Positions 9,787 to 19,582 of a DNA stretch of 64,000 bases are shown piece after piece. This DNA is from Lachnospiraceae bacterium AF51-6-b8A. Its GTDB lineage: Bacteria; Bacillota; Clostridia; Lachnospirales; Lachnospiraceae. How positions within the stretch are numbered: position 1 is the stretch's first letter; each line of letters starts with the position of its first letter. The notes under the pieces are model-generated. The model saw nothing but the letters and a program-made list of their open reading frames with translations. It did not search any database and had not been told where the DNA came from. Location: assembly GCA_027682585.1 (NCBI GenBank), contig JAQCZH010000002.1:620001-684000 (forward strand), given 5' to 3'. A program made the position numbers and the translations under genes.

Positions 9787-11238
9787 TCACTCCGCTCCAT
9801 ATTCACATCCGACGTGAGCCGCTTCAATCTCATCCACCAGCTCCCACTGCCAATCCTTCTTAAGAGACTTGCGGTAGAGCTTAATGGTGCCTGTTCCGGT
9901 GCCGCCGCTCCAGAGTTCTTTGTGGCGGATCTGGCCATCCGGCGTCTCATAGCTGAGTCGCACCATATCCTCCCTGGAACAGTGGATATCTGTATACATC
10001 TTGGACAGGGGCGTCTCCTGAATCATGCGCCAGCGGATATACTCCTTGCCGACCTTGACCTTATACCGGGTCTTGGTCAAAGTCCAGACATGAGAGAAGT
10101 TAAACTGATAAGGTTCTCCCTCATACCACATGGCGCCAAGCAGGCCATTTTCCACTTCCAGATTGCCGACCCGGGGTCTCCCTCCCCCAATCGTAAAAGC
10201 GGAATCACGCAGCTTCTCACCGCTGATCTTTGAAGTAAGGTCACTCGAAGCCAGCCAGATCCATGGTTTGGTAAAATTACTGCCCCAATTTTTATCCGCA
10301 TAACCAAACGAGGTTTCCGGCCGAACCATGTAAATCTGTCCATTATAGACGACTCTTCCCTCATAGGCTGTCTTCATTCCCTCCGCGTGCCAGAGCATCT
10401 GAAGAGCCTCCTGATCACGCATGGGTTTTCCGGCGCCATAACCGATATTAAAGGCAATCTTCTTGTCAATGTGCAGATCCCAGATCAAGTCACCAGCATC
10501 GCTCATCCACTCCGGATGTGCCTCGATCTCCTCCGGGCGCAGACTCACCCGCCCCAGACTTCTGGTCTCACTGAGGAAACAATTGTCCGCACTGATTGAG
10601 AAGGGGGTTCCCTCATTCATGCTGACTTCCTTCCAGGGAAAGAAGCGGTTCAGCTGCTTCGCATCCTCTCCCCAAATCCCGGCCTTGACCATAAGATAGG
10701 ATGGTCTGATTCCCTTGCTCTGCGCTTCTTTGCTCTGCCCCAGGATGGCGGCATCTGTTCCCAGGGCCGGATTCATTGCGAAGAAACAAAGAAAAAAACT
10801 CTTCTCCTCACCAGTAGCCGCATTGTGTCCGGTAAATGACTGCCACCAGCAGTCATAACCCTGCTCTGCCAGCTTGCCGCGGAGCATAAAACGGTCGCGG
10901 TCCAGATCGGACTTGTTGAACCCGCTCTCCATAATGTCGCTGCCCATTTCACCAGCGACATCTATGGCGCTCTTTCCGAACTCTACGGCTCTGCCTGCCA
11001 TAGGATGCTTTCTGGCGACCCCCTCCATAATCTGCCCCATAGATTTGGCCGCAGAAGCGGCCGCCTCATCCAACTTGTATTTCCTGGCGATCTGCCCCGC
11101 CTTGCTGACAGCTCCATCTGTAACATGAATAGCTCCGGTCGCCGCTTTCTTAGCCACCTCAATGGCTATATCCGCATTGTCTGTCGCAGAGTCAATCGCC
11201 CTGGAGATATTGGCCTCAATCTCTTCTAATACGCCCAT
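9787..11238 (-). CDS. tocopherol-cyclase-like (lipocalin-type) domain protein
   Basis: Function unknown. The 483-residue protein has an Ala-rich amphipathic helical N-terminal part (about 1-110), then a beta-rich domain resembling the tocopherol cyclase family: CWWQSFTGHNAATGEEKSFF near 130-149, YADKNWGSNFTKPW at 313-326, and later GLLGAMWYEG. The ADKNWG segment is the most telling family motif. No signal peptide or true membrane span is visible. Quinol or tocopherol synthesis genes are absent nearby. It lies upstream of no obvious partner on its strand, but cardiolipin synthase precedes it by 157 bases, so a lipid-related role is possible. The family call rests on motif memory. Confidence 0.65.
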   Translation of the reverse strand: MGVLEEIEANISRAIDSATDNADIAIEVAKKAATGAIHVTDGAVSKAGQIARKYKLDEAAASAAKSMGQIMEGVARKHPMAGRAVEFGKSAIDVAGEMGSDIMESGFNKSDLDRDRFMLRGKLAEQGYDCWWQSFTGHNAATGEEKSFFLCFFAMNPALGTDAAILGQSKEAQSKGIRPSYLMVKAGIWGEDAKQLNRFFPWKEVSMNEGTPFSISADNCFLSETRSLGRVSLRPEEIEAHPEWMSDAGDLIWDLHIDKKIAFNIGYGAGKPMRDQEALQMLWHAEGMKTAYEGRVVYNGQIYMVRPETSFGYADKNWGSNFTKPWIWLASSDLTSKISGEKLRDSAFTIGGGRPRVGNLEVENGLLGAMWYEGEPYQFNFSHVWTLTKTRYKVKVGKEYIRWRMIQETPLSKMYTDIHCSREDMVRLSYETPDGQIRHKELWSGGTGTGTIKLYRKSLKKDWQWELVDEIEAAHVGCEYGAE

Positions 11239-14241: not shown

Positions 14242-14345
14242 TTGTTCCCGCCTGAAACAGGCTTAGCGGTTCATCTTATCTTTCCACCGGAAGCGGACTT
14301 AGCGGTTCATCTTACATCCTCCGGAAGCAGGCTTAAAGGTCCATC
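14242..14345 (-). repeat. three tandem imperfect 34-36 base repeats spanning the comEB stop
   Basis: Units at 14312-14345, 14276-14311 and about 14242-14275 (in transcription order) share GATGAACCGCTAAG and TTCCGG. The first unit contains the end of comEB (ATG GAC CTT TAA); the next two contain a mini-frame ATG AAC CGC TAA, each preceded by a purine-rich ribosome-site-like stretch. They look like a tandem duplication of the gene's 3' end. Confidence 0.75.
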
Positions 14346-14818
14346 TCCACCTTCCTGCCTGAGGGCAAATAACGCCTGCTGGCGACTCCCGCAGCCTTAA
14401 GCATACGCTTGGAAGCAATCACCGACGGTGTGTCCGCATATTTATCCGTCTTAAAAATAATCTCCTTGATCCCCGCCTGAATAATGGCCTTGGCACACTC
14501 ATTACAGGGGAAGAGGGTGACATACATCTTGGTCCCTTCCAAACTCCCTCCCCGATAATTCAGGATGGCATTGAGTTCGCTGTGAGTCGTGTAGAAATAT
14601 TTATTCTCAAGAGGCGCTCCCTCCCGGTTCCATGGAAACGCATCATCCGAACAGCCAATGGGAAGACCGTTGTAGCCAATGGAGAGGATCTTATTCTGCG
14701 GGCTGACGATGCAGGCTCCTACCTGGGTATTGGGGTCTTTGGACCGCATGCCGGCCAGGGTTGCCACCCCCATAAAATACTCGTCCCAACTAATGTAATC
14801 CTCGCGTTTACCGCTCAT
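14333..14818 (-). CDS. comEB: dCMP deaminase (ComEB-like)
   Basis: Zinc enzyme that deaminates dCMP to dUMP, feeding thymidylate synthesis. The 161-residue protein has the zinc and catalytic motifs HSELNAILN and PCNEC, and an early TQVGACIV segment. Family length is 140-180. Its ATG overlaps the TGA of the upstream Sua5 fusion by four bases, so the two are coupled. The 3' end is duplicated downstream. Confidence 0.92.
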   Translation of the reverse strand: MSGKREDYISWDEYFMGVATLAGMRSKDPNTQVGACIVSPQNKILSIGYNGLPIGCSDDAFPWNREGAPLENKYFYTTHSELNAILNYRGGSLEGTKMYVTLFPCNECAKAIIQAGIKEIIFKTDKYADTPSVIASKRMLKAAGVASRRYLPSGRKVEMDL

Positions 14819-16371
14819 ATTCTTTCCTCTTTGCTTTCAGACAAACTTCCCGCCGTCTCATTGAGTTTAACAGCCAGCTTTCCAATCGTCTGATTCAGAA
14901 CTTCGAAGCAAAGACCATACTGCTGCAGGTTTCCTCCATAGGGATTGAGAATATCCAGTTCATCTCCCACATAGTAGGAGAGAACATAAGTATTGTTCTC
15001 GTCAGCACCAGCAAAACGCTGGATAATATCTGCTCTCTGCGCGGCGTCCATGGTGAAGACCAGCGTCGTATCACTGATCTCCTCATTCTTAAGAACCCGG
15101 GACTCATAATCCGCCAATTCCATCCCCTTGCCCTGCAGGACTGCCTGGACCTTCTGGTTGATCGGCTCCGGGAAAAGAACCAGCCTCCCGCGGGCAAGAA
15201 TTTCAACCGGCCGAATCAGTCTCTGCCTGCGCATCAGTTCTGCCGCCATGGGCGCACGGCACACTCCGCGGCCGGAGACAAAGATCACTCTCGTCACTCT
15301 CCTCCCCGCCCGAATCACCTGGTGCGCCGCCGCCTTAATCAGGCGGTTCATAATGGCCGTTCCCATACGGGGTGTATCAAAGGCTTCCGAGTAGATCCGT
15401 TCTATGCCGTCATCATCAAAACGCCGAAGAATTCCAAAGAGATGACGAGCAATCGCCTTATCATCACTGCGAGCTCCGATCTCCGCAATATCCCCTTGCA
15501 GATAGCGGCTTTTTGTCTCGCTGCTTGCGATAATGCCAACCCTTCTTCCCTCCTCAATCGCCTTCGCACTCAGGCGATTGATGGTTTCAACCACATCACC
15601 CTCTGATCCCTCTACTATTTTCAAATCACCTCTGGGCGCGTAGTGCTTATAACGCATTCCTGGCGCCTTGGGCCTTAGTCTGGTGTTCTCTTCCATCAAT
15701 CCGGGATCCATTCGCACACGATCCTGTCCCAGAACATCCTCCAGCATCCGCAGATTGATATAGCCGGGACGAAGTACGGTCGGAATTCCATCGGACAGAT
15801 CCACAATCGTAGATTCCAGACCGATTTCTACCGGGCCTCCGTCAATAATCGCATCTATCTTCCCGGCCAGATCATCAGACACGTGTTCCGCCCGTGTCGG
15901 CGAAGGCCGGCCCGAGGTATTCGCGCTTGGCGCCGCAATCATGCAGCCGCTTGTAAGAATCAGCTGACGGGCCACCGGATGAGAAGGCATGCGCACTGCC
16001 ACGGTATCCAGTCCGCCTGTAGTCTCCATGGGAATCCGGTCATTCTTCCTGACAATCATCGTCATGGGGCCCGGCCAAAAAGCATCCGCCAGAATCTTCG
16101 CCTCCGGGACAAGTTCCTGCGCAATCGCCTCCATCTGAGAGAAATCCGCGATGTGAATGATCAGAGGGTTATCCGAGGGCCTCCCCTTGGCCGCATAAAT
16201 CTTCCTGGAAGAAGCGGCATTCTCCGCATCTCCTCCCAGGCCATATACCGTCTCCGTGGGAAATGCTACCAGGCCCCCCTCGCGCAGAATCTTTCCCGGC
16301 TCTTTTAGTATTTCCTTCAAATCATCTCCAGGCATAACCCGAAATTGTTTTGTCTCCAATGGAGTCCTCAC
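14815..16371 (-). CDS. Sua5/YwlC threonylcarbamoyl-AMP synthase fused to a degenerate low-Mr protein tyrosine phosphatase domain
   Basis: The N-terminal 355 residues are a full-length Sua5: ATP, threonine and bicarbonate are converted to threonylcarbamoyl-AMP for tRNA t6A37. KGRP (62-65), WPGPMT and the SAN motif (149-151) are present, with the C-terminal Sua5 domain after 245. Residues about 360-505 match a low-molecular-weight PTP fold, but the active-site CX5R loop reads VSGRGVCRAP, so the nucleophilic Cys is Ser366, and the general acid of DPYGG is Asn476 (LNPYGG). The second half is therefore probably inactive and may regulate or scaffold. The GTG start has an AGGAAG site. comEB follows with a four-base overlap. 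Confidence 0.9.
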   Translation of the reverse strand: MRTPLETKQFRVMPGDDLKEILKEPGKILREGGLVAFPTETVYGLGGDAENAASSRKIYAAKGRPSDNPLIIHIADFSQMEAIAQELVPEAKILADAFWPGPMTMIVRKNDRIPMETTGGLDTVAVRMPSHPVARQLILTSGCMIAAPSANTSGRPSPTRAEHVSDDLAGKIDAIIDGGPVEIGLESTIVDLSDGIPTVLRPGYINLRMLEDVLGQDRVRMDPGLMEENTRLRPKAPGMRYKHYAPRGDLKIVEGSEGDVVETINRLSAKAIEEGRRVGIIASSETKSRYLQGDIAEIGARSDDKAIARHLFGILRRFDDDGIERIYSEAFDTPRMGTAIMNRLIKAAAHQVIRAGRRVTRVIFVSGRGVCRAPMAAELMRRQRLIRPVEILARGRLVLFPEPINQKVQAVLQGKGMELADYESRVLKNEEISDTTLVFTMDAAQRADIIQRFAGADENNTYVLSYYVGDELDILNPYGGNLQQYGLCFEVLNQTIGKLAVKLNETAGSLSESKEERI

Positions 16372-16407: not shown

Positions 16408-18111
16408 CTATTTCCCCGCACTGATCGTCTGCCAGATGGAGGCTGGCTCCATCCCCAGCTTCCAGAAAGCGACTCCAGCCAGATCATTGCTCCGATATAC
16501 TTCCATCTTTCTGGCCATAGAATCGGCGTTCTCCAGCCAGATCTCCACCTTGTTTCCCTCTGCATCCTTCCAGGAGGCCGTGCTCTGTCCCAACTCCTCA
16601 TTCCAGCTGGCCACAGCCTTATTCTGTGTCAGAAGAGCATCCTGATCCTTCATGCCGACAGCCTGGCTGGATACGCTCCCGTCGCTCTTCGTCGTCCAGA
16701 TTCTGGTGTAAAGGGGCAGAGCCAGTATTACCTGTCGGGCAGGCGTACTCTCCAGGGTAGCGGCGACCGCCTTTTGAACATAGCCAATGGACGAATTGCT
16801 GCCCGCGGTCTTATCCGTAGCCCAATGCTCATCATAGGCCATGATTACATTATAGTCCGCGTAGTTGGCCTGTTCCGCCCGGTTATAGTGAAGACTGGAG
16901 GCGCTGGGCGTGTAATTATCGACAGAAACGACCAGATTATTGGCATGAGCCTTAAGGGACAACTCCCGGATAAATTGAATATAGCCATCTGCCGCCTCTG
17001 TCGGCAGGGACTCAATGTCTACATTGATGCCATCCAAATTATAGCGGATTGCAGCCGCAACCAGATGATTGACCAGATTATCTCTTGCCGACGTCGTATT
17101 CAAAACCGCCTTGGTGTCGACCCCATTGGCAGCCAGGTTGCTGACCAGCCCCCAGACAGCAATATTCCCACTATGTGCCTTTGACACATAATCAACGCTT
17201 CCATAGTCATTGATATTGCCCCCATTGTCCTTGAGGGAGAACCAGGTGGGAGAGATCACATTGACACCGTTTGTATTGGCCAAAAGGCCGGATATCCCGG
17301 CATTGCCCGCGGTTGAGGTCACCTGGTGCCAGGCCATCTGGATCTTCTGATCCAAAATCCTGTGGCTGTACTGACGCTCCGGCAAATTCGCCTCGATCTT
17401 GGAATCTCTGATCCCGCTGACCTTGCTTTTGCGAACACAGCCAACCACATTATCTGCAGTAACCACCTGATACCAGCCATCCAGCTCCTGAACAATCGTA
17501 AGCTCATCTCCGCTCTTGCCGTCTTCTAGGATCTGGCTCTTAATTCCCGCCTTGCGGCGAATCCCCTCCGCCCCATTCAGGCTGCCGGTCTTCACTGATG
17601 TCCCTGCTGTCCAGATCGCCAGCCGATGGGGCTGATCGGAAATGGTGTAGGTCAGATCCGTAAACTGCTTGACAAAATCCAGCGCCACATATGTCTTATT
17701 ATTGGCAACAATGACAATCGGGGCGGACCAGCTTCTGGAATTCCTGTCTTCCGTATAGCTGGTGTCAGAGAGATTGACGCTGATCAGACTCTTATCTGTA
17801 GCATAGCGCAGAATGCCTTCTGTCGAATCATAGACCCAACCATCATCAAGATGATCATGAAGCACACTCCACCGGATATAAGTCGTCCCATTAACCACCC
17901 TGGCGGCAGCCGCCTTATCGTCCGCGCTGATCAGATTGCCGTTGGCAATCACTGCGCCATCCTCTTCCCTGTCAATTCCATAGAAGGTATTTAAGCTCAT
18001 GTGTTCTCTGCCGGGACGATACCGTATCGTCAGGAAAGCGACCATGCCAATCAGAACAATCACAAGCAGTAAAATCAACGCCAGAGGCATTCTCTTCTTT
18101 GTCTTCTTCAT
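16408..18111 (-). CDS. GH18 family glycosidase with N-terminal membrane anchor and SH3-like domain
   Basis: Predicted cell-surface hydrolase acting on cell-wall glycans. The 567-residue protein has a membrane helix at 9-29, a copper-amine-oxidase-N-like stalk domain (about 70-165), a bacterial SH3-like segment (about 185-235) and a GH18 barrel (about 255-565). The catalytic motif DGINVDIE places the acid at Glu367, so it should be active. The start MKKTKKRM follows GAGG; nine extra upstream codons are possible. It resembles spore- or wall-associated YdhD/YaaH-type proteins. It is a single-gene unit downstream of a structured intergenic region. Confidence 0.88.
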   Translation of the reverse strand: MKKTKKRMPLALILLLVIVLIGMVAFLTIRYRPGREHMSLNTFYGIDREEDGAVIANGNLISADDKAAAARVVNGTTYIRWSVLHDHLDDGWVYDSTEGILRYATDKSLISVNLSDTSYTEDRNSRSWSAPIVIVANNKTYVALDFVKQFTDLTYTISDQPHRLAIWTAGTSVKTGSLNGAEGIRRKAGIKSQILEDGKSGDELTIVQELDGWYQVVTADNVVGCVRKSKVSGIRDSKIEANLPERQYSHRILDQKIQMAWHQVTSTAGNAGISGLLANTNGVNVISPTWFSLKDNGGNINDYGSVDYVSKAHSGNIAVWGLVSNLAANGVDTKAVLNTTSARDNLVNHLVAAAIRYNLDGINVDIESLPTEAADGYIQFIRELSLKAHANNLVVSVDNYTPSASSLHYNRAEQANYADYNVIMAYDEHWATDKTAGSNSSIGYVQKAVAATLESTPARQVILALPLYTRIWTTKSDGSVSSQAVGMKDQDALLTQNKAVASWNEELGQSTASWKDAEGNKVEIWLENADSMARKMEVYRSNDLAGVAFWKLGMEPASIWQTISAGK

Positions 18112-18153
18112 CTCACACCTCAGAGTGGGAACACACATAATAAATCAAAATGA

Positions 18154-18904: not shown

Positions 18905-19582
18905 ATGAAGATTGAGAAACTCAGTGACCGACAGGTTCGTTTCCATATTACCCGCTCCGACCTGGAGCACAGAGGGATCAAGCTGGCTGAATTCGCCTAT
19001 GGAAGTGATCGGGCCAAGGCTCTTTTTCGCGAACTCCTGCTCTGGGCTGAATACAAATTCAACTTTGCTGCCCATGACATCCCGATTATGATCGAGGCCG
19101 TTCCTGTCAACGCGGATGAAATCATTCTCATCGTCACCAAACTGAATCCGCAGGAGCTCGAGGCATATCAACAGAATAACAGGGATAAAAGTGCTATCTC
19201 CTCCGATCACAATCCCAGACAGGATCCAGGCTTGCAGAATCCCATTCGGCATTTGATTCCTCCCCGCGTCCCAGCAGAGAAAACAGCCCTCTTCGCCGTT
19301 GATCGCCTGGAAGACCTCCTGTCTCTGGCCCAAAAGATCCCCCATCCGGATCGGGTTACTTCATCTCTCTACCGCGACCCCAAAAGCCAGGTCTATTATC
19401 TCCTGCTCAGTTCCCGTTCTGACAATCAGGAGGCGTTTGCTCTCATTCAGGCAATGACAAGCGAATACGGCAATCTGCTCAATGTTCCCAAATTCGGGGA
19501 GGTATATATCGCTGAGCGCTTTGAGTGCATTTTAGCGGAAGACGCCTTGACAAAGCTGCAGTCGCTCCACTCTATCAACTGA
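18905..19582 (+). CDS. mecA: adaptor protein MecA
   Basis: Adaptor that delivers substrates to the ClpC ATPase of the ClpCP protease. The 225-residue product has the N-terminal substrate-binding domain (MKIEKLSDRQVRFHITRSDL, then NADEIILIVTKLNPQELE), a polar linker (about 90-120) and the C-terminal ClpC-binding domain (LFAVDRLEDLLSLA, then YGNLLNVPKFGEVYIAERFE). Length equals the family norm. A perfect AGGAGG site and a good promoter precede it. In Bacilli MecA controls competence and other regulators; here comEB lies 4 kb away, but no functional link is implied. Confidence 0.92.
   Translation: MKIEKLSDRQVRFHITRSDLEHRGIKLAEFAYGSDRAKALFRELLLWAEYKFNFAAHDIPIMIEAVPVNADEIILIVTKLNPQELEAYQQNNRDKSAISSDHNPRQDPGLQNPIRHLIPPRVPAEKTALFAVDRLEDLLSLAQKIPHPDRVTSSLYRDPKSQVYYLLLSSRSDNQEAFALIQAMTSEYGNLLNVPKFGEVYIAERFECILAEDALTKLQSLHSIN

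Follow-up and report, generated by a model that had tools for sequence, protein, structure and literature searches.

A Sua5-linked phosphatase-fold domain of Lachnospiraceae, very likely a pseudophosphatase, with an eroded P-loop and a fixed W-loop

Introduction

The window, a stretch of 64,000 nucleotides from Lachnospiraceae bacterium AF51-6-b8A, contains a gene in which the tRNA-modification enzyme Sua5 is joined to a domain of the low-molecular-weight protein tyrosine phosphatase (LMWPTP) type. In this domain, the positions of the nucleophile Cys and of the general-acid Asp are both occupied by other residues. The Lachnospiraceae are gut and mouth bacteria, and the question raised by this locus is whether the domain has decayed in a single genome, is the vestige of a lost phosphatase, or is retained throughout the family for a purpose other than chemistry.

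Results and discussion

Architecture and gene neighborhood

The features of the locus are given in Table 1. The fusion of Sua5 with an LMWPTP-type domain, which the earlier note had read from the sequence, was borne out by profile searches. The N-terminal two thirds make up a complete Sua5, with both Pfam domains above the cut-off, and residues 362 to 499 cover positions 1 to 143 of the 144 of the LMWPc profile (PF01451; E 1.8e-13), which is a full-length match. An AGGA is found a few bases 5' of the GTG start. Residues K62, R64, S149, and N151 of the Sua5 part, which we take to be Sua5 active-site letters, are invariant in 50 of 50 aligned fusions.

Table 1 Features of the Sua5-LMWPTP-like locus in the window
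Feature	Position	Strand	Basis
Sua5-LMWPTP-like fusion gene, 518 aa, GTG start	14815..16371	minus	ORF, Pfam
Sua5_yciO_yrdC domain, residues 27-203	15763..16293	minus	Pfam PF01300, E 3.7e-59
Sua5 C-terminal domain Sua5_C, residues 205-349	15325..15759	minus	Pfam PF03481, E 6.4e-33
LMWPTP-fold domain, residues 362-499; nearest solved relatives YwlE, 4egs	14875..15288	minus	LMWPc, profile, fold matches
Degenerate P-loop, residues 366-373, SGRGVCRA (canonical CXGNXCRS)	15253..15276	minus	Alignment, motif
Ser366 (TCC), nucleophile position	15274..15276	minus	Codon read
W-loop block, residues 394-407, RGRLVLFPEPINQK, newly conserved in Lachnospiraceae linked copies	15151..15192	minus	Alignment
D-loop, residues 475-479, LNPYG	14935..14949	minus	Alignment
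Asn476 (AAT), general-acid position	14944..14946	minus	Codon read
Deaminase, dCMP/ComEB type, downstream of fusion	14333..14818	minus	Pfam, neighbor count
ATGA overlap, fusion stop/deaminase start	14815..14818	minus	Sequence read
GH18/SH3 protein, recurring upstream neighbor	16408..18138	minus	Pfam, 37/80 loci (many short)

Fold modeling, which had been proposed as a check on the domain, predicted the LMWPTP fold with confidence. The AF2 model of the domain has a pLDDT of 92.5 and TM scores of 0.80/0.84 to 4pic. The best solved match of the fold search was YwlE (4pic, E 1.8e-11), with 4pic, 4kk4, and 4egs in the lead and 4kk3 and 4etn among the best, and a profile search of solved chains placed 4egs first, followed by 4pic. 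The model of the full-length fusion (pTM 0.66) gave no sign that the domain packs on Sua5 in a fixed arrangement.

The fusion and the deaminase gene behind it may be translationally coupled through the ATGA that they share. A deaminase gene lies on the same strand, at most 3 kb behind Sua5, in 47 of 80 related loci, many of which are short. The order is Sua5, LMW, Upp-like, and deaminase in one relative (L025), and Sua5, RpiB-like, Upp-like, and deaminase ORFs in another (L030), where RpiB and Upp are named by the look of the sequence.

Two other genes of the window were recorded. A MecA adaptor gene is present on the plus strand (18905 to 19582), with a MecA relative in 31 of the 80 related loci (many short); McsB and YwlE act on ClpCP substrates, which gives the nearby MecA its interest. 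A 483-residue protein encoded on the minus strand (9787 to 11238) has a weak match to the tocopherol-cyclase profile PF14249 (E 1.1e-6), which is odd for such a bacterium.

Loss of the catalytic residues across the family

Ser366 and Asn476 align with the catalytic positions, as originally read, and Arg372 (CGT) is retained. The accompanying claims that exactly these two residues are lost, and that the motifs around them are kept, did not survive comparison with the P-loop motif CXGNXCRS, as given in PMC7948962. Four of the six specified letters are altered in the window copy (C, G, N, and S), leaving C371 and R372, and the Gly of the phosphate cradle is Arg368. The P-loop is eroded, and it is the W-loop that is newly fixed instead.

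The same Ser/Asn state was found in clusters 99%, 86%, and 81% identical to the window protein and in Shuttleworthella satelles (L001), a member of the Lachnospiraceae whose protein is 86% identical to that of the window. Relatives are encoded in 176 genome stretches. The best 80 of these 176 were kept, and most are titled Lachnospiraceae or with genera that we assign to this family, while a few are Ruminococcus, Eubacterium, Clostridium, or Clostridiales. The domain is fused to Sua5 in some relatives and is a separate ORF directly behind Sua5 in many.

A survey of 250 Lachnospiraceae genomes found Sua5_C in 246, and 120 Sua5 loci (L084 to L203) were taken among the matches listed. They were drawn roughly by order of E value, apart from a few manual omissions and the deliberate retention of the listed genomes with McsB, so that McsB-positive genomes are over-represented (39 of 60, plus 81 others) and the set of linked copies likewise leans towards them. 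The stretch scanned behind Sua5_C was 2.5 kb, or shorter at contig ends (L202). It contained an LMWPTP domain in 54 of the 120 loci (13 fused, 41 separate); no LMWPTP was found in this stretch of at most 2.5 kb in the other 66. As these 66 loci show no linked LMWPTP in the scanned stretch, many relatives can make t6A without the module. L030 also has a Sua5 with no linked LMWPTP.

Cys, Arg, and Asp are intact in 9 of the 54 linked copies from these 120 genomes and lost in 45, including one copy (L133) with an unread P-loop that was counted as degenerate on Asn at 476 alone. In a pooled non-redundant set of 133 copies, the three residues are kept in 16 and lost in 117; this set, 151 aligned sequences less 18 (fragments, a gap at a site, or more than 95% identity), is weighted towards sequences related to that of the window. 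The letters at position 366 are C45, S44, G14, A13, D9, E4, V3, and T1, while Arg is present at position 372 in 95 copies and lost in 38, and Asp is present at position 476 in 61. Most dead copies no longer have the Gly and Asn of the phosphate cradle, and the same is often true of copies that keep Cys/Arg/Asp; P477 and Y478 are mostly retained. The 16 copies that keep the three residues may be enzymes.

These frequencies bear on two explanations in which the altered site would still handle a phosphorylated substrate. Since C-to-S and D-to-N are the classical trapping changes, the window copy, with Arg372 kept, resembles a natural substrate trap that would hold a phosphorylated protein unhydrolyzed, and YwlE C7S with phosphorylated serine is, by its title, the content of 4kk4. 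Such a trap is nevertheless quite improbable: position 366 also holds A, G, D, E, V, and T, the Arg is missing from 38 of the 133 copies, and the cradle Gly/Asn are absent from most dead ones, the Gly being Arg368 in the window copy. With these losses of Arg and cradle residues, binding of a phosphorylated protein, which had been put forward as a possible role, is not supported as a general one. An unusual phosphatase mechanism, in which Ser or some other residue acts as nucleophile, would agree with the kept fold and with the retention of P477 and Y478, yet we consider it extremely improbable, given that the copies have no shared replacement letter and that Ala, Gly, and Val are unfit as nucleophiles.

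Copies from outside the family draw served for comparison. Sua5_C was found in 138 genomes drawn at class level, and 40 loci were taken (13 for long reading frames and 27 hand-picked along the list), all from genomes not included in the 250 of the Lachnospiraceae. A linked LMWPTP is present in 35 of the 40, with Cys/Arg/Asp intact in 35 of 35. At least seven of these copies are fused to Sua5 with an intact phosphatase site (L206 to L210, L212, and L214), which means that fusion recurs without catalytic loss. Fusion as the cause of inactivity was rejected on the basis of these intact fusions and of the 41 of 54 family copies that are separate genes. A mix-up with a paralog was rejected as well: in 15 Lachnospiraceae genomes with a dead linked copy, the unlinked LMWPTP paralog shows CXGNICRS together with DP every time (15 of 15). 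S. satelles has no second LMWPTP, with a single match in its genome.

Conservation of the W-loop

Column entropies were calculated from 35-row subsamples of all 133 family copies and compared with those of the 35 class-level outside copies. The P-loop (366 to 373) has 0.05 bits outside and 1.96 bits in the family, whereas the W-loop (396 to 407) goes from 2.35 bits outside to 0.77 bits in the family, with 0.42 bits for the 16 copies in which all three catalytic residues are present. The D-loop (475 to 479) is less conserved in the family (1.29 versus 0.82 bits). The P-loop difference is also seen with the letters that were not used to define a copy as dead (367 to 371 and 373), which have 0.06 bits outside, 1.99 in the family, and 1.47 in the 16 Cys/Arg/Asp-keeping copies. 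Greater diversity of the family as the source of the extra substitutions was excluded, since diversity over the whole domain is equal inside and outside (1.86 and 1.88 bits), with a mean pairwise identity of 0.37 among dead copies and 0.38 outside.

The family consensus of the W-loop is RGxVVLFPEPxNxK. Its conservation in dead copies is 90% for R394, 91% for V398, 98% for F400, 86% for P401, 95% for E402, 99% for P403, 93% for N405, and 94% for K407. The fixed positions R394, F400, P401, E402, P403, N405, and K407 are common to dead and Cys/Arg/Asp-keeping copies, so the block is independent of catalytic loss, and its fixation can be read as the earlier step. According to PMC7948962, the P-loop is the floor of the LMWPTP crevice and the W- and D-loops are its walls, the W-loop being the variable wall and linked to substrate recognition. 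On this geometry, one wall of the crevice has been fixed while its floor has eroded.

We lean towards the W-loop wall being the working surface of the domain, although the motif could instead act as a structural plug. A different possibility is that the polar residues R394, E402, N405, and K407 make up a novel active or ligand-binding site next to the dead P-loop. These four positions are 90 to 95% conserved in dead copies and other letters prevail outside, as a re-invented enzyme would predict. However, the conserved F400, P401, and P403 resemble a structural or docking motif, the neighboring genes suggest no chemistry, and a few outside copies share Arg at 394 (SRG), all of which leaves this possibility improbable.

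Selection and phylogeny

Omega was estimated for pairs of related genes. The window pair and nine others were tried, and eight were usable; L005-L006 was set aside because its two sequences hardly differ (LMW omega 0.50 at dS 0.01) and L008-L073 because of saturation. The LMW part has an omega of 0.04 to 0.16 across the eight usable pairs (0.04 to 0.15 in the seven besides the window pair), of which six are pairs of dead copies and two (L012-L016 and L027-L028) keep Cys/Arg/Asp. A recount under other limits left two pairs, with 0.098 and 0.18. Between the window and S. satelles, the values are 0.098 for the Sua5 part and 0.16 for the LMW part, the latter being the highest among the genes compared (deaminase 0.040, EamA 0.086, GH18 0.077, and MecA 0.122). 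The LMWPTP-like domain is under purifying selection.

The tree was built with columns 366 to 372 and 476 excluded, from 55 family rows (the 54 linked copies less L133, plus the window and S. satelles) and 10 of the 35 outside copies. The family rows form one side of a branch with a support of 100/99 against the 10 outside rows. Parsimony gives 18 letter changes at position 366, 14 at 372, and 19 at 476, and a count with irreversible loss gives 14 losses of Cys, 12 of Arg, and 13 of Asp on the best tree, in which many forks are weak. The fusion state changes six times.

The question of whether close relatives keep Cys and Asp, with the window copy alone differing, is answered by these data: the loss is family-wide, and relatives with the same loss, together with the omega values, rule out a local decay. 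The family-wide loss combined with purifying selection also speaks for the retained non-catalytic role suggested from the single sequence. Still to be weighed is a vestigial domain, that is, a phosphatase decaying after the loss of McsB as a harmless tail of Sua5. Catalytic residues have indeed been lost in many lineages, McsB occurs in a minority of the family genomes (60 of 250), more than half of the surveyed loci have no linked copy in the scanned stretch, and omega in the window pair is higher in the LMW part than in the Sua5 part. Against this, the low omega extends to six pairs of dead copies, the domain persists as a separate adjacent ORF and not just in fusions, the W-loop is far more conserved than outside, and the overall diversity is that of live outside copies. 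We give a vestige little credence. The domain is very likely a lineage-specific bacterial pseudophosphatase, a pseudo-enzyme maintained by selection.

McsB and arginine phosphorylation

McsB was searched for with PF00217, a query that matched 0 of 14 controls, Bacillus subtilis included, and again with a profile made from two PF00217 hits, which is not fully independent of the first. The two queries agreed on the genomes with McsB, 60 of the 250 Lachnospiraceae surveyed, and neither found McsB in S. satelles (G001). A canonical CXGNXXR P-loop is present in 5 of the 54 linked copies, namely, 5 of 11 with McsB versus 0 of 43 without it (Fisher p 1.5e-4), and Cys/Arg/Asp are kept in 5 of 11 versus 4 of 43 (Fisher p 0.012). 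A phylogenetic sign test of the association of McsB with an intact phosphatase was not significant, and it is underpowered with the 2 to 5 independent supported pairs that differ. Linked copies are rarer in McsB-positive genomes, with 11 of 39 versus 43 of 81 (none in 28 of 39 versus 38 of 81; Fisher p 0.012). McsB as the sole driver of the loss was not accepted, given the sign test and the 6 of 11 McsB-positive linked copies that are dead.

The McsB sequences of 40 of the 60 genomes were read (loci L244 to L283). NEEDH and CPTN, phosphagen-kinase motifs that we take as McsB active-site letters, drift in many of the 40 copies, three of which carry a single stop within the matched region. In the five McsB partners of canonical phosphatases, NE[ED]DH is intact and the Cys position holds C or S, although some of these kinases are altered at other motifs (G232 and G077). 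Of the six McsB partners of dead phosphatases, five have an altered NxxDH together with Tyr or Phe at the Cys position; the sixth, G035, retains both NEEDH and Cys. These residues suggest that kinase and phosphatase were remodeled jointly, and part of the Lachnospiraceae may have an altered or dead McsB.

Proposed role

The explanation that we favor, and regard as reasonably probable, is that a YwlE-type phosphatase next to Sua5 was converted into a non-catalytic docking module, whose acting surface is the W-loop wall and whose role probably lies in t6A synthesis. The ancestor would have been a YwlE-type arginine phosphatase acting on a partner near Sua5, and its W-loop wall would have taken over as a protein-docking surface. 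With the docking role in place, the chemistry would have become dispensable, the more so with McsB absent or altered. The repeated losses of Cys, Arg, and Asp took place in an ORF that purifying selection continued to maintain. The module would dock Sua5 to a t6A partner, in cis in the fusions and in trans for separate adjacent genes; TsaD and TsaB would be the first candidates, and the purpose could be the hand-over of TC-AMP or the setting of t6A output. Several results weigh against this explanation: the full-length model shows no fixed packing, many loci have no linked LMWPTP in the scanned stretch, the LMW part has the highest omega of the genes compared with S. satelles, and the D-loop, which is the other wall, is less conserved in the family than outside.

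The assignment of the docked partner to the t6A pathway is more tentative. Two things make a t6A link plausible: the domain is linked to Sua5, and in B. subtilis TsaD is a target of McsB/YwlE, with effects on TsaD degradation (PMC7546277). A more specific version, which we consider rather unlikely, is that R394, E402, N405, and K407 form a rebuilt pocket wall that binds a t6A partner or a small molecule (e.g., TsaD/TsaB or TC-AMP) and gates Sua5, with McsB altering or disappearing in parallel. If this were true, a regulator of a near-universal tRNA modification would have been made from a dead arginine phosphatase.

The family offers a natural series around a single clade: the outside copies are canonical, some copies inside combine Cys/Arg/Asp with the fixed W-loop, and others have lost one or another of these residues separately. 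This allows a direct test of whether a binding role precedes the loss of chemistry. More broadly, the locus points to a possible t6A regulator and to a remodeled arginine-phosphorylation system in a major gut family.

Comparison with known systems

The literature searched, with most subscription journals outside it, contained no joint mention of ywlC and ywlE, of LMWPTP and Sua5, or of McsB and Lachnospiraceae, and the titles and abstract openings retrieved do not describe a dead phosphatase domain beside Sua5. The closest known system is the protein-arginine phosphatase YwlE/PtpB (PF01451), which has the fold and profile match in common with the window domain and likewise adjoins Sua5, the ywlC-ywlE neighborhood of Bacillus being presumably Sua5 next to YwlE. 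Unlike YwlE/PtpB, the window domain is without the nucleophile Cys, the general-acid Asp, and the P-loop Gly-Asn, has the fixed RGxVVLFPEPxNxK in place of the W-loop, and is fused to Sua5.

Compared with the threonylcarbamoyl-AMP synthase Sua5/TsaC2 (6f87 and 9d3h), the window protein has an extra C-terminal LMWPTP-fold domain. Indeed, the solved stand-alone Sua5 chains that top the search (6f87, 6f89, 2eqa, and 9d3h) have 340 to 352 residues and no phosphatase-like domain. Sua5 is fused to other t6A modules in TsaN, a TsaD-TsaC-SUA5-TcdA modular enzyme (8ide) as its title states; that title names no phosphatase-like domain, in contrast to the window fusion.

Eukaryotic pseudophosphatases such as STYX, MK-STYX, and the inactive myotubularins also have a PTP-type fold without working catalytic residues, and regulatory roles are reported for them. 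Judged by titles and abstract openings, the pseudophosphatases among the matches listed are eukaryotic, whereas the present case is bacterial. The STYX-type proteins belong to other phosphatase subfamilies; the window domain is an LMWPTP tied to a tRNA-modification enzyme, and it differs from them in belonging to one clade within which the catalytic residues have been lost many separate times.
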